Shown: positions 18,095-26,747 of the stretch, piece after piece
Position numbering within the stretch: the first letter of the stretch is position 1
How the letters are laid out: the number at the start of each line of letters is the position of its first letter
Assembly: GCA_005877655.1 (NCBI GenBank)
Contig: VBOC01000005.1
Coordinates: 1-30,330 of the forward strand
DNA length: 30,330 nt
Direction of reading: 5' to 3'
Source: Ignavibacteria bacterium
GTDB taxonomy: Bacteria; Bacteroidota; Ignavibacteria; UBA10030; SZUA-254
The notes under the pieces: model-generated
The model's database searches: none
Seen by the model: the letters and a program-made list of their open reading frames with translations, nothing else
What the model was told of the DNA's origin: nothing
Made by a program: the position numbers and the translations under genes

Positions 18095-18736
18095 CTACGG
18101 TCTGGCACTCCTCCGTTGCCGGATCAATTCATAGACTGCCGGGAGGAGGGAGATGACGACGATCATGGCGACCACGAGCGTGAAGTGGTTTTTGACGGCG
18201 GGTAGGTTGCCGAATAGATAGCCTCCGAATACAAAAATCCCGACCCAGGCGATCCCCGCCACGACGTTGTAAAACATGAACCTGTTGTATGCCATGAATC
18301 CGATGCCGGCCACGAACGGGGCGAATGTTCGAATGATTGGCAGGAATCTCGCGATGACAATCGTCTTCCCGCCATGGCGCTCGTAGAAGGCGTGGGTACG
18401 CTCAAGGTAACGCTCGTTGATGAACCGCGAACCACCCTTCCGGAAGACGCCAGGTCCGATCGCAGCACCGATCCAATAGTTGGTTGTGTTCCCGGCGACC
18501 GCGGCGATTGAGAGCGTCATAAAAAGCCAGAGTGGATCCAAAGAACCCGATGCGGCCAGAGCTCCGGCGGCAAAGAGCAGAGAGTCCCCGGGCAGGAATG
18601 GGGCCACAACCAACCCGGTCTCGGCAAACACAATCGTGAAGAGAATGGCATACGACCAGATACCGTAGTTCGCGATCAACTGATTGAGGTGGACGTCGAT
18701 GTGAAGCATGAAATCCAGAATGGAGTCGGCGTTCAT
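18095..18736 (-). CDS. DedA family membrane protein
   Basis: 213 residues with about five hydrophobic stretches. DedA/SNARE-associated marks: FAETGLVVAPFLPGDSLLFAAGALAA (~37-62), NYWIGAAIG, ERTHAFYERHGGKTIVIARFLPIIRTFAPFVAG (~113-145) with its membrane-embedded acidic and Arg residues, and a C-terminal GYLFGNLPAVK. Family members transport or flip lipid carriers (undecaprenyl phosphate or phosphatidylethanolamine) or keep the proton-motive force; which one cannot be told. It is the last gene of the rfaE1 operon: its start codon follows the rnr stop without a gap, consistent with an envelope-related operon. Confidence 0.9.
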   Translation of the reverse strand: MNADSILDFMLHIDVHLNQLIANYGIWSYAILFTIVFAETGLVVAPFLPGDSLLFAAGALAASGSLDPLWLFMTLSIAAVAGNTTNYWIGAAIGPGVFRKGGSRFINERYLERTHAFYERHGGKTIVIARFLPIIRTFAPFVAGIGFMAYNRFMFYNVVAGIAWVGIFVFGGYLFGNLPAVKNHFTLVVAMIVVISLLPAVYELIRQRRSARP

Positions 18737-20706
18737 CTATTCTACCAGCATGAAATCAATCTCGCGCTCCTCGGGGTCGACCCGGATCACCTTCACCGAG
18801 ACCTTGTCTCCCAGGCGGTAGCGCTTCTTCGTCCGCCGGCCGATGAGGGAGTAATGCTTTTCATCGAACACGTAGTAATCATCCTCAAGATCGCGAACGC
18901 GGATAAGGCCCTCCACAAGCAAATCGGCAATTTCGACAAACATCCCGAAATTCGTGACACCGGAGATGATCGCATGAAAAACATCGCCGACGTGCCGACG
19001 CATGTACTCGACCTGCATGACCTTCACGGATGCCCGCTCGGCGTCTGAAGCGACTCTCTCCCGTTCAGACGCATGGCGGCAGATGTCGGGCAGCGTCTCC
19101 AGGAGCTGTTCCCGGCGCCGGTGAGGCATGTTGTTCGCATACTCGTCGAGGAGGCGGTGGACGAGCAAATCGGGATACCGCCGGATCGGAGAGGTAAAGT
19201 GCGTATAGTACCGGAATCCGAGGCCAAAATGACCGATGTTCGTTTCGGAATACACGGCCTTTGCCATCGAGCGAATGGCAACTTCATTGATTACGTTCTC
19301 CTCTTCCTTGGCTTTTACATCATTGAGCAACTTTTGAAGCGCCCTTGATGTGACGCCTCCCTGAAGGTGGAGCCGGTATCCGAGGTGCTCGACAAAGGAG
19401 GCGAGGTCTTTCAGTTTGTCGGGGTCCGGCTGGTCGTGAACGCGATAAACGAACGGGCGAAGATGATCCTCCCTGCGGGCGAGCCCGATATGCTGCGCCA
19501 CAACCTGGTTGGCGAGCAGCATGAATTCTTAATCAACCGATGCGCGTCGAGCCGCACTTTTTTGATGATCTCGACCGGCTTGCCCTTCTCATCGAATCGA
19601 AACTTCGTTTCGACCGATTCGAAATCGATGCTGCCCTCCTTGATCCGTTTCTTGAGAAGCGTCTGGCTGAGCGAGTGCATCTGTGCGATTGTCTCCGCGA
19701 AATCGCCTTTCCGGGCTGTGATGATCTCCTGGACCTCTTCATAGGAGAATCTGCGTTTGCTGCGGATGACAGTGCGTTCGATCCGGTAGCTTTTAACTGT
19801 GCCGCGCGGGGTTACCTCCATCAAAGCGGAATAGGTGAGGCGATCCTCCCCGGGGCGCAGGCTGCAAATATCGTTTGAAAGTTTTTCCGGAAGCATCGGG
19901 ATGACTTCATCGGCGAGATACACGCTCGTGCCCCGTTTGACGGCTTCTTTGTCGAGCGCCGTCCCCTCCCGTACATAGTGGCTCACGTCGGCGATGTGAA
20001 CACCGAGCCGGAAATTTCCATCCGGCAGGGGTTCGAGGGAGACTGCATCGTCAAAATCCTTCGCATCTTCGGGGTCGATTGTCACGCAGAGAAGATCGCG
20101 CAAATCGAGTCTCCTGCGGACTTCTTCCTGCGGAATGGTGTGCGGGATGGATTCGAGCTCCCCGAGAACCTCCCGCGGAAAGTGAAGAGGCAGTTGAAAC
20201 TCGCGCGCCACCGCGGTCATCTCGGCGCCCACCTCGCCCGATTTCCCGAGAACCTCGGTAATATGCCCCTCGGGGTTCAGCGTCGGCGATTCCCATCCGT
20301 CGACAAGCGCGACAACCTTTTCTCCGGGCCTCGCCCCCTTGGTCTTCCCCTTCGGGATGTAGATATCCCGCGTCACCCTCCGGCTGTCCGGGACGACGAC
20401 AAAGAAATTCTTTTTTTTCTCGAAGACGCCGACAACCGGCAGAGCGCTCCTCTCGATGACTTCAATAATCTCGCCCTCGGGCATTTCGCTTTCCCCGGAA
20501 CCTTTGAGGCGCGAAGATTCCTGCGCGAGGGGAACCACGGCAACAGTATCCCCGTGGAGCGCGGTGAAAAGGAAGCGCGAAGGGATGACAATGCTGCCCG
20601 TGGAGGGGGGGAGGAGCTTTACAACTCCGTTTCCCTGCTTGACGATGGAGAGAACTCCGGTCATCCGGCGGGAGGAAGTACGGGGGGCTGAATCGCGTTT
20701 ATGCAT
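18737..20706 (-). pseudogene. rnr: Ribonuclease R, single-base frameshift
   Basis: The product would be ~656 residues. It has cold-shock-like RNA-binding folds (~15-165), then the RNB catalytic domain with DPEDAKDFDDAV (Asp211, 217, 219, 220, magnesium ligands) and GVHIADVSHYV. It ends with YTHFTSPIRRYPDLLVHRLL and an S1 domain (~560-656, EGLIRVRDLEDDYY). RNase R degrades structured RNA 3' to 5'. After DAHRLI (codon 392) the frame is lost at 19530/19531; one extra G in the coding strand restores DAHRLIEEFMLLANQ. Unless repaired, the first fragment ends at 19411 and lacks the S1 domain and part of RNB. The N-terminal helix-turn-helix of longer homologues is absent. It lies 4 nt after tamB. Confidence 0.9.
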
Positions 20707-23700: not shown

Positions 23701-25231
23701 GCCCGGATACGACCGCTTTCATCTTTTGGGAGGTTACCTCGACGCGGCCTTCGAAGCGATCCGGCGAGCCCTGAAGAGTGAGCTGGGCTGCGTCAATGGG
23801 GATATTGCGCAAGCGGGAGGTATCGATCCGAACGCTCAACGTTGCGCGGATCTGGTCGGCGGAGATCCCTTCACCGTCAAGCTTCCCGCTCGTGAAGAGC
23901 GTGGAGTTGATCCGCTGGTTCGATAGAATCGACGCGAGGTCCAGGCGCTTTGTGGTGAACGATAATTCGTACCGCGGGACCTTTCTCTCGAGATTAATAC
24001 TCCCGGCCACCTCACACTCGCCGAACTTTCCCTTGACGACGGTCCTTGTCCGGAAATCGAGCGGCCTCCCGATGAACCGCATATTCACCGACGCCGGTCC
24101 CCCGCGTTCGAATGTCGGGATTTGCATCCCCGGCATCAGTTTCGCCGCCACGGAGGGATCGAAGGAGCTGCTTCCGATAGAGAGGTCGAGATCGAGACGA
24201 TCGGCCCGTTGAAGGTTCCGAACGGTTCCCGCGACGGTGATGGAATTTTCCTCGACCTTCAGGTTCAGCCGACGAATGGTCAGGTCGCCAAATTCCCCGT
24301 CGGCGGCGAGATCGATCGACGCGGAGCCCTCTAGAAATGAAAGTTCCGGGATAAATTCCCGGAGTTCTGAGAAATCGACGCTCCTGGCGTTGAGTTTAAA
24401 TTGCGCAGAGTCATGCTGGAGGGCGGCGGCCTTTACCTCCCTGAAGAGATCGAGGCCGACGACCCGGCCATCCAGCTCCATCTGGGAGCGGCCGGACTGC
24501 ACGATGACATTGGTTGCGGAAACGCCGCCCGCCGAGACCCGAAAATCCCCCGCACAATGGGTCAGTTCGAATACCGGCCGGTCGGAATAGAAGCTGGTGT
24601 GGAGCACGTGAACATCAAAATCCTCGGGCCTCACCGATGCTTTCAGCTGAACGTTGATGTCCTTAAAGGAAAATCGCCCGACTGTAAACTGCCGCCCCGC
24701 AAGCGCGTCTCCATTCGGCGCAACCGCGGACGTCGAATCAAAGACAGTGAGCGTCCCGTTTTTCAGCTCCAGGTCATTCAGAAACACGTTCCAATCAAAG
24801 GTTCCATGCGTGGTATCGCCCGAAGGCTTCAGGAGCTTCGCATAATTCCACTCTCCGGCCCTCGATCGGAGGAGATAAATCGTGGGCCGATCGACGATGA
24901 GATATTGCATCGTAGCGCTCTTATCGAAGAGAGTCATCAGATCGTACTTGACCAGGACTCTTTCTGCCCGCAGGAACAAGCCTGTTTCCGCGTAGATTTC
25001 CACTGAGTCCACCGTGATGCCGGTGAAAAAGTTACCTCCCAGAGTTCCGATGCGAATTGACCCGTTGAGCCGGTCGGAGAGAGACGATACAAGGAGCATC
25101 CGCACGCGATCCTTGAATAATGCGGTCTGCGTGAATCCTCCCAGGATGAAAATGACGATCAGAAAGAGCGCCGCCGCATAGACGACGATCTTGAAGATGC
25201 GTCGGAGGGTCTTCATCGCGGGAAGACTCAC
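20711..25231 (-). CDS. tamB: TamB-like translocation and assembly protein
   Basis: 1506 residues, the size typical for TamB/AsmA-like giants. An N-terminal membrane anchor (~12-35, RIFKIVVYAAALFLIVIFILG) is followed by a long periplasmic body of repeated beta-strand units and a C-terminal DUF490/TamB domain (~1150-1506). That domain includes FIRSAEVSYGGGSFQQG, ITLSDVSF-type repeats and an outer-membrane-like last residue Phe (YYRFSF). TamB spans the periplasm and is thought to move phospholipid and/or help outer-membrane protein insertion with TamA. No tamA is present here. The GTG at 25231 overlaps the rfaE2 stop (GTGA); an ATG at 25216 (MKTLRRIFK) is an equally good start. The frame is uninterrupted over 4.5 kb, in contrast to its neighbours. 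Confidence 0.88.
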   Translation of the reverse strand: MSLPAMKTLRRIFKIVVYAAALFLIVIFILGGFTQTALFKDRVRMLLVSSLSDRLNGSIRIGTLGGNFFTGITVDSVEIYAETGLFLRAERVLVKYDLMTLFDKSATMQYLIVDRPTIYLLRSRAGEWNYAKLLKPSGDTTHGTFDWNVFLNDLELKNGTLTVFDSTSAVAPNGDALAGRQFTVGRFSFKDINVQLKASVRPEDFDVHVLHTSFYSDRPVFELTHCAGDFRVSAGGVSATNVIVQSGRSQMELDGRVVGLDLFREVKAAALQHDSAQFKLNARSVDFSELREFIPELSFLEGSASIDLAADGEFGDLTIRRLNLKVEENSITVAGTVRNLQRADRLDLDLSIGSSSFDPSVAAKLMPGMQIPTFERGGPASVNMRFIGRPLDFRTRTVVKGKFGECEVAGSINLERKVPRYELSFTTKRLDLASILSNQRINSTLFTSGKLDGEGISADQIRATLSVRIDTSRLRNIPIDAAQLTLQGSPDRFEGRVEVTSQKMKAVVSGLTDLSIRESPRFSGDISFEGVNLARVLDDPRYGSDLTLEGTVSGSGGTINDLNTDIKFLLMPSTFQGHSISSQEIRFFLDQHDPAGKRLSLHSSVMDLDLNGTFDLDLAGASLIHQTSNLLETIREHALPPESLRTRTAASRIAHVSSQRRMDFDYTLHVKDLDPVATLIVGQRFDGRAILTGAIRGNDERLSFSCNGAIEECFIGTFEKGVLLNRATLTVALDSLADNSTLENLSARGRLRSESGLVNTTRIDSLDIDLDYRRLKGTLSIKGVIDSVYSIIMAGQTSVQPHTYAFDVDNLTFSSGVYRWHNDQDVQVRVNYDGTRVMHAVMLRNQEQFSLTGVLHHDGEFDFDAALNNFDLTGLAVFVRNPELLRPDQGFRGQTGATLHLAGSPENPFITFKAVSDSAYFRQTRIGSVEANILYGSATATIGLTVKKMPSDPQPTLVVKGTLPINLAFSGVEERFPPEKQHLEIVSQGFDLSVFDPILRDFENLRGILHCGITVAGTPRDPEYLGSITLSDVSFTFAPNNVPYSISADLEPSGNRIVLKSFQVRNLQKLGPVGEARVSGSLIIKNYQIDSIDFTAFGQILLMSEATRKTRSTVYESLFTEIGPEGLALSGPIAHPYLTGNLYVRDANLTFPPVKENAGSSAQMALNYVVLDDTSKAAPQPARPSKFYSGSDARHSSNRTAEVRERESLFLDRLRYNLSIESRGTTAIKMIFTPSTNEELYAELDGRVSVVNSQGYASVTGEIAVLPRSYYNFFRRFDASGKLKFVGQWDNPELEIQATYEGYRTDPVHDSLQQKVIVQLNIGGTRYEPKLDMSMKVQLQPDQEPVDWASQARGGDVQADVISFILTGKFRDELTSKERGDIASSVGSTAGSGLTSGLLSGVLTDFLRQEFPFIRSAEVSYGGGSFQQGANVRLSGEAFKGYWQVGGKILNDIGNANVSYQMSLGDVLKAPSIHNLFLEIQRRVEGDISEEKKLTNEARLYYRFSF

Positions 25232-25710
25232 GATGAGGAGGATCTCTCGAGGATTTTCGCGATGAGGCGTGAGGTGGAATGATCGGGTACAAGATCGATT
25301 GCCGCGACTGTGCCCCCGGCGGCTTCAACGAAGTCCTTGCCGACAATGTCCTTGACACTCCAGTCCGCCCCCTTCACCAGCACATCCGGGGTCAATTGCC
25401 TGATCAGCTCGAAGGGGGTGTCCTCATGGAAGAGACATGCGTAATCGACAGGGGAAAGGTTGGCGACGATGAACAGACGGTCGGTTTCTTCGACAAGCGG
25501 CCGGTTGCTGCCCTTAATGCGGCGGACAGAGTCGTCGCCGTTGACTCCGACGATCAACACATCACCCAGCGCCTTCGCCTTCGTCAGGTAGTCGATATGC
25601 CCGCGATGAATGAGATCGAACACGCCGTTTGTGAACACCACCCTCTTCTTCTGTCCGCGAAGTCCCGTTCTGATCGATTGCAATTCTTCACGGCTCACGA
25701 TCCTTCCCAT
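25228..25710 (-). CDS. rfaE2: D-glycero-beta-D-manno-heptose 1-phosphate adenylyltransferase
   Basis: 160 residues, matching the stand-alone C-terminal half of HldE. It uses ATP to turn heptose 1-phosphate into ADP-heptose for LPS inner core. The nucleotidyltransferase fold begins FTNGVFDLIHRGH, with HxGH at 35-38; further marks are GVNGDDSVRRIKG, VDYACLFHEDTP, LVKGADW and DHSTSRLI. The ATG shares one base with the rfaE1 stop (TGATG), so translation is coupled. In E. coli both activities are fused; split genes are usual in the FCB group. The gene itself looks intact although rfaE1 upstream is damaged. Confidence 0.92.
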   Translation of the reverse strand: MGRIVSREELQSIRTGLRGQKKRVVFTNGVFDLIHRGHIDYLTKAKALGDVLIVGVNGDDSVRRIKGSNRPLVEETDRLFIVANLSPVDYACLFHEDTPFELIRQLTPDVLVKGADWSVKDIVGKDFVEAAGGTVAAIDLVPDHSTSRLIAKILERSSSS

Positions 25711-26711
25711 CAGAACGGGTTGCCGTTGTGCGTCCGATGGTTTTGCAAAACGTGCTCGGCCAGCTCATTCCGGTCGATCGGGACGATTCCGACATATCCG
25801 CACACGATGCCGCCCGCGAAGTTCGCCAGCGTAGCCGCCTCCCGCACTGTCGCTCCGCCCGCCAGCGACAGTGCGGGAGGCGGCTACGAGATCGCGTCTG
25901 AACTCCTTCGGGCCCTGGTGGGCACGTGGTTAACCGTTCCATCGGACTCGAAGAGCGACATTCCCTGCTCTCCGAGCGTCAGGAGTACGCTCTTCGGACA
26001 GAGCCGTTCCAGCAGGACTTTTCCGGTTTCATTAATCTCGTCCCGGTTCTGCAGCCTGATTCCCATCACTTCTTCGACTTCCTTCCTGTTTGGCTTGAAA
26101 ACCGTGACGTTCTTGTATTCAAAGAAATTATTGAATTTAGGATCCGCGGTGATCATGATGGAGTGTTCATTGGCGAGCTCGACGACTTGCCGGATCAGAT
26201 TCTTGACGATCACCCCTTTATTGTAATCCTCCAGGATAATCGCGTCGATGGAATTGATGTTCCGGCGGAGGACATCCAGGATTTTGGCCTGGATGACGTG
26301 CGAAATGTCATTCTTCGATTCCCGGTCGATCCGGACGACATGCTGCTGGTGGGCGATGACCCTGGTCTTGACCGTCGTGGGTCGTTCGCCGTCGATCACT
26401 ATGCCATCGGGAGGAAAGCCGCTTTCTCGAATGATGCCGAAAAGCTGATTGCCGCTGTTGTCGGCTCCGATGACCCCGACAAGGAGGGGTTCCCCTCCAA
26501 GCGACTGTATGTTCTTCGCGACGTTTGCGGCTCCCCCCAGCCGCGCCTGCTCCGTTTCCAGATCGATCACCGGAACGGGGGCCTCGGGCGAAATCCTGCT
26601 GACCGATCCCCAGAAATAGCGGTCGAGCATCAGGTCCCCGACGACGGCAACCCGTTTTCCATTCATGCCGGCGAGGAGATCGGTTAACCGCTTCTCCTGG
26701 ATCTCGATCAA
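25710..26711 (-). pseudogene. rfaE1: D-glycero-beta-D-manno-heptose 7-phosphate kinase, active-site motif replaced by an inverted repeat
   Basis: A PfkB-family kinase that phosphorylates heptose 7-phosphate at C1 in ADP-heptose synthesis. The N-terminus has GDLMLDRYFWGSVSRISPEA (25-44) and GGAANVA (59-65); ILEDYNKG and ADPK follow, as does NRKEVEEVMG. The frame reads to SSDAIS and then hits a TAG at 25886-25884 (codon 276). The same frame resumes at once with ALSLAGGATVREAATLANFA and ends ...NGNPF at 25710. The expected D(V/I)SGAGDTVI, carrying the catalytic Asp, is missing and replaced by stop-PPP inside a 25-bp perfect inverted repeat. Start: TTG at 26711 (reads M-IEIQEKRLTDLL) with AGAGGAAGG just before it. 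A TTG at 26747 is in frame but lies upstream of the expected transcript start. Truncated product ~275 residues, likely inactive. Confidence 0.88.
25830..25888. repeat. 25-bp perfect inverted repeat, 9-nt loop
   Basis: Arms 25830-25854 and 25864-25888 are exact reverse complements; the loop is 25855-25863. It lies inside rfaE1. The inner part (GCACTGTCGCT/AGCGACAGTGC) may be native coding sequence; the outer 14 bp of the right arm copy the left-arm codons REAAT in reverse. No T-run follows, so it is not a terminator. Confidence 0.95.
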
Positions 26712-26747
26712 AACCTTCCTCTGTAAACCATGAATAAATCCCTTCAA

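Follow-up and report, generated by a model that had tools for sequence, protein, structure and literature searches.

The inverted repeat that replaces the rfaE1 active site in an Ignavibacteria draft genome is most likely an assembly error

Has a mutation destroyed the active site of rfaE1 in the sampled cells of an Ignavibacteria bacterium, or is the lesion an error of the draft genome in which it is found? We analyzed a stretch of 30,330 nt (contig VBOC01000005.1 of assembly GCA_005877655.1; hereafter the window) from a draft of 2.53 Mb in 255 contigs with a completeness of 79.26%. In the window rfaE1 precedes rfaE2 (25228-26747, minus strand), and their order with respect to the nuo genes and to a large TamB-like gene is the same in G001, a genome of the same genus that served as comparison. 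rfaE1 encodes D-glycero-β-D-manno-heptose-7-phosphate kinase. Its 5' part is an open reading frame of 287 amino acids (25884..26747, minus strand), which matches TIGR02198 with 295 bits, below the curated cut-off of 345, and is 95% identical to P0001 (350 amino acids), the closest protein found. The 3' part continues in the same frame (25710..25883, minus strand, with its stop codon at 25710-25712) and matches both P0001 and G001. The neighboring rfaE2 (heptose 1-phosphate adenylyltransferase; 25228..25710, minus strand) is intact and scores 190 bits with TIGR02199, above the cut-off of 181.5.

Translation of the minus strand yields PTRARRSSDAIS, a TAG stop codon (25884-25886) and PPPALSLAGGATVREAATLAN in one frame. 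P0001 reads ARNVADVSGAGDTVISTLTMALAGGATV at this site (wider context ...VADVSGAGDTVISTLTMALAGGATVREAATLAN...) and keeps the GAGD motif, which is absent from rfaE1 of the window. GAGD is the active-site motif of PfkB kinases. A study of the related kinase WcbL (PMC4691232) and a search of solved structures contributed no evidence to the present argument. The rest of rfaE1, outside the altered stretch, carries no other lesion. A previous reading, made from the sequence alone, had assigned the gene to rfaE1 and had described a lost GAGD segment and a gained TAG with an equal frame before and after; the TIGR02198 match supports the assignment, and the translation displays each of the other points.

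The lesion coincides with two arms (25830-25854 and 25864-25888) that are complementary at 25 of 25 bp and lie 9 nt apart, in agreement with the perfect 25-bp inverted repeat that had been placed at 25830-25888 inside rfaE1. On the minus strand the downstream arm (25830-25854) encodes ATVREAAT, and the same residues are found in P0001; the 9-nt loop (25855-25863) lies within the LAGG codons and is native by comparison with the same protein. The upstream arm (25864-25888) is the exact reverse complement of the downstream arm, carries the TAG and stands in the place of the relatives' active-site codons. GAGD is present at the corresponding place in all of 109 related loci (29 from one search and 80 from another, with some genomes in both), and the palindromic change is found in none of them. 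Because P0001 and all 109 related loci keep GAGD, the upstream arm is the derived copy. The proposal that one arm is native and the other a reverse-complement copy of the REAAT codons thus holds, ATVREAAT being present in P0001. The repeat itself is most naturally explained by fold-back copying.

A perfect repeat of this length is far beyond chance. The longest other inverted repeat (loop of at most 60 nt) in 251,062 sampled draft bases outside the window has arms of 14 bp, and a further 228,736 draft bases contain none of at least 13 bp; over 510,128 draft bases including the window, none besides the rfaE1 repeat exceeds 14 bp at the same loop limit. G001 has no inverted repeat of at least 13 bp in 142,270 bases and none of at least 16 bp in a further 835,963, nor any of at least 16 bp in the total of 978,233. 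We considered a dispersed repeat or mobile element and rejected it, as a second copy of the arm sequence is absent from the 2.53-Mb draft at up to three mismatches. As single-stranded DNA, the hairpin has a folding energy of -38.5 kcal/mol (z -9.07). This stability is a property of the product and not of the native site.

How much of a hairpin may have existed before the change was estimated from the DNA of relatives. We compared 89 distinct sequences from the 109 loci (three were too short, the remainder duplicates; an earlier count on 83 agrees). At the corresponding place 0-6 contiguous bp are paired, and 60 of the 89 pair none; across their whole region, no inverted repeat is longer than 10 bp, the maximum observed. 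Some relatives have a short hairpin at the site, of 6 bp in L008 and 4 bp in L018. It is plausible that the native site formed a hairpin of a few bp, probably shorter than the 11-bp inner hairpin postulated by the sequence-only reading, which is not supported by the 0-6 bp paired at the aligned place in relatives.

A simple one-step extension of that hairpin, suggested at the same time, is not supported either. Compared with P0001, rfaE1 of the window lacks five codons, and the alteration extends beyond the arm. Some 22 nt next to the repeat (25889-25910) also look altered and not clearly native, so that the copied arm does not explain all changed bases. A degenerate-codon test of low power places this outer stretch below the shuffle mean for nativeness, and a DNA test against nine relatives places it weakly above shuffles (26 of 300 reach the observed mean, 21 of 300 the maximum), in keeping with a weak resemblance to the relatives' DNA. 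The draft holds no other copy of the stretch, and thus no candidate source, at up to three mismatches, and no segment longer than 12 nt is shared with it in the 281 kb of draft compared. We also asked whether the fold-back copy might simply continue into this stretch with many errors, and rejected this because 150 of 300 shuffles matched as well, as expected by chance.

Whether the change belongs to the organism depends on how reliable the draft is elsewhere. We ran the same script in both directions, over 510,128 bases of the draft and 978,233 bases of G001; the draft sample is non-random, its contigs having been picked by number and some through earlier search matches. When the draft was the subject, the script listed 13 lesions in 86 gene matches (27,085 aligned amino acids); when G001 was the subject, it listed one in 89 gene matches (27,432 aligned amino acids). 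The lists were sorted by eye. The single G001 lesion was dropped for low identity, leaving none, and five of the 13 draft lesions were dropped: a match in L201 of low complexity, a stop that precedes the sucC start, a match in L196 that rests on a 13-residue piece, a frame in L157 that looks non-coding, and a stop in L148, of uncertain status, whose frame is weakly GroES-like. The eight credible lesions affect rfaE1, rnr, leuS, sucC, tpiA, hpt, pheT and one unnamed gene in L126 (gene names from NCBIfam), and seven remain without rfaE1, which was chosen in advance. L196, a contig of 4.9 kb, carries four of the 13 listed and two of the eight credible lesions.

These breaks take several forms. 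The gene rnr (RNase R; 18737..20706, minus strand), the second lesion in the window, has a frame change near 19528, and the G001 copy at the corresponding place is intact. Abrupt single-point losses of roughly 35-60 nt compared with G001 occur in leuS (L153, about 18490-18514), tpiA (L196, about 815), sucC (L196, about 3762) and the unnamed gene (L126, about 1896), and they possibly reflect a systematic fault of assembly or gap closing. In-frame stops interrupt hpt (L148, about 1826) and pheT (L157, near base 25); the latter sits 24 bases from the contig end, and consensus is often poor near contig ends. Because their stop codons differ, the two are not signs of recoding. The draft contains no other intact copy of leuS or tpiA. 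The genes leuS, pheT and tpiA are indispensable, and a cell could not survive without the synthetases for leucyl- and phenylalanyl-tRNA, so most of the draft breaks are probably errors. It is very unlikely that any living cell combines all of them. Indispensable genes are broken in the draft and not in the matched control, G001, and breaks this frequent make error the leading explanation for rfaE1 as well. That the change is present in the organism, as the earlier reading had it, is not supported in a draft that also breaks leuS, pheT, tpiA, sucC, hpt and rnr. Eight other break sites that we examined show no inverted repeat longer than 7 bp, so the errors of this draft alone do not predict a fold-back, a point against the artefact described below.

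It had further been suggested that the cell lacks ADP-heptose unless another kinase exists. We find no second rfaE1 in the draft, which lacks about one fifth of the genome; of five PfkB matches, only one of the four others matches P0001, at 23%. gmhA is without a match in two of 30 genomes searched, the draft and G014. Since gmhA adjoins alaS in G001, and alaS in the draft is cut short where contig C84 ends, the absence of gmhA may well be an assembly gap, and we disfavor pathway loss on this evidence. The conclusion that ADP-heptose is lacking does not follow from a draft that is only 79% complete. A search for hldD (TIGR02197) was uninformative, the cut-off being reached in one of 30 genomes.

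If the lineage were abandoning ADP-heptose, rfaE1 could be a true pseudogene, which would account for its broken state together with an undetected gmhA. We regard this as very unlikely in view of the possible gap at gmhA, the intact rfaE2, the lack of further decay in rfaE1 and the seven draft matches to PF01075, the family that includes heptosyltransferases. Even harder to credit is a functional DNA or RNA element within the gene, such as a terminator, a mobile-element end or a recoding signal. The very stable hairpin would fit such an element, but the draft holds no other copy, positions 25600-26100 give no Rfam match at gathering score, no inverted repeat longer than 10 bp is found at this place in the 89 distinct relative sequences, one arm belongs to normal coding sequence, and the active site is lost through the change. 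That the sampled cells recently underwent a genuine quasi-palindrome template switch deserves more weight, although we still consider it unlikely. During replication the nascent strand would fold at a short native hairpin, copy itself for about 20 nt and return with a small deletion, destroying rfaE1. The repeat is exact with one native arm, relatives can have a short hairpin at the site, and the remaining gene is undamaged, which fits a very recent event; against this stand the roughly 22 further nt that the switch leaves unexplained, the absence of the change from all 109 related loci, and the indispensable genes broken elsewhere in the draft, which make the lesion weak evidence of mutation.

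Quasipalindrome-associated template switching is established in Escherichia coli (PMC7202029, in which Ripley 1982 is cited). The likeness to rfaE1 lies in an inverted repeat within a gene that becomes more perfect, with the copied arm templated by its neighbor. The reporters described there, however, begin with an 18-bp quasi-palindrome, whereas only 4-6 bp are likely at rfaE1, where the copy spans about 20 nt and some 22 nt more are altered. A wild population carrying a fresh rfaE1-null allele from a compound switch on a 4-6-bp hairpin is unlikely in our view; losing surface heptose might favor such an allele, for instance where phages attack.

Our preferred explanation is a local error of the assembly that grew out of a fold-back artefact in a read. 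It probably explains the rfaE1 lesion better than a real compound template switch does, and it would mean that the sequence is not the organism's allele. The site would be a poorly covered, GC-rich spot, at which a DNA 3' end could have snapped back on the short native hairpin (about 4-6 bp with a 9-nt loop) during library making or amplification. The snapped-back end would then have been filled in by copying about 20 nt of the neighboring strand, and the read tail, together with some 22 nt of bad or misjoined sequence, would have bridged the gap. A physical fold-back is needed because an assembler alone would hardly make a reverse-complement copy of about 20 nt. Several points count against the artefact: a fold-back read is not expected to re-enter native sequence, so the misjoin has to be assumed as a second error, fold-back of DNA ends occurs in cells too, the frame is kept on both sides with the remainder of rfaE1 free of lesions, and two fairly complete genomes, G051 and G057, also have a two-piece rfaE1.

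Chimeric reads with inverted repeats arise in sequencing libraries. In the PDSM model of PMC10908179, short inverted repeats let single strands pair, the opposite strand is copied during end repair, and the resulting reads turn back on themselves. These reads come from human libraries and are of low frequency, whereas the rfaE1 case stands in a consensus and returns to native sequence beyond the repeat (PMC10908179). Local assembly errors that yield incorrect protein-coding genes in metagenome-assembled genomes (MAGs) are described in the consulted sections of PMC7111523. As in our draft, short consensus stretches in uncurated MAGs break conserved protein genes, several per draft. The errors in PMC7111523 are defined by a consensus without read support, whereas the present analysis covered the consensus, and the perfect inverted copy in rfaE1 is unlike them, none being mentioned in the same sections.

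Taken together, the rfaE1 palindrome most likely reflects a fault of the draft rather than a real mutation. The case is a useful caution that artefacts of draft genomes can look like striking signatures of mutation; they come to light when indispensable genes from the draft in question are compared with those of a close relative. If the change were true, it would show that a very short hairpin can seed a template switch in a wild bacterium, which would extend a known process modestly.

Broken copies of rfaE1 also occur in other relatives. Four rfaE1 matches have an internal stop, and all four are among the 12 of 100 genomes that are less than 80% complete. The gene lies in two adjacent pieces in G051 (94% complete; C77, 10787-11576) and G057 (92% complete; C80, 18075-18793), and G078, G083, G084 and G095 are among the other relatives in which rfaE1 is split or has one internal stop. 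These split or stop-bearing copies are probably draft errors. The draft studied here also keeps very short contigs (C5 with 310 bases and C30 with 279 bases), which is unusual for a binned genome.
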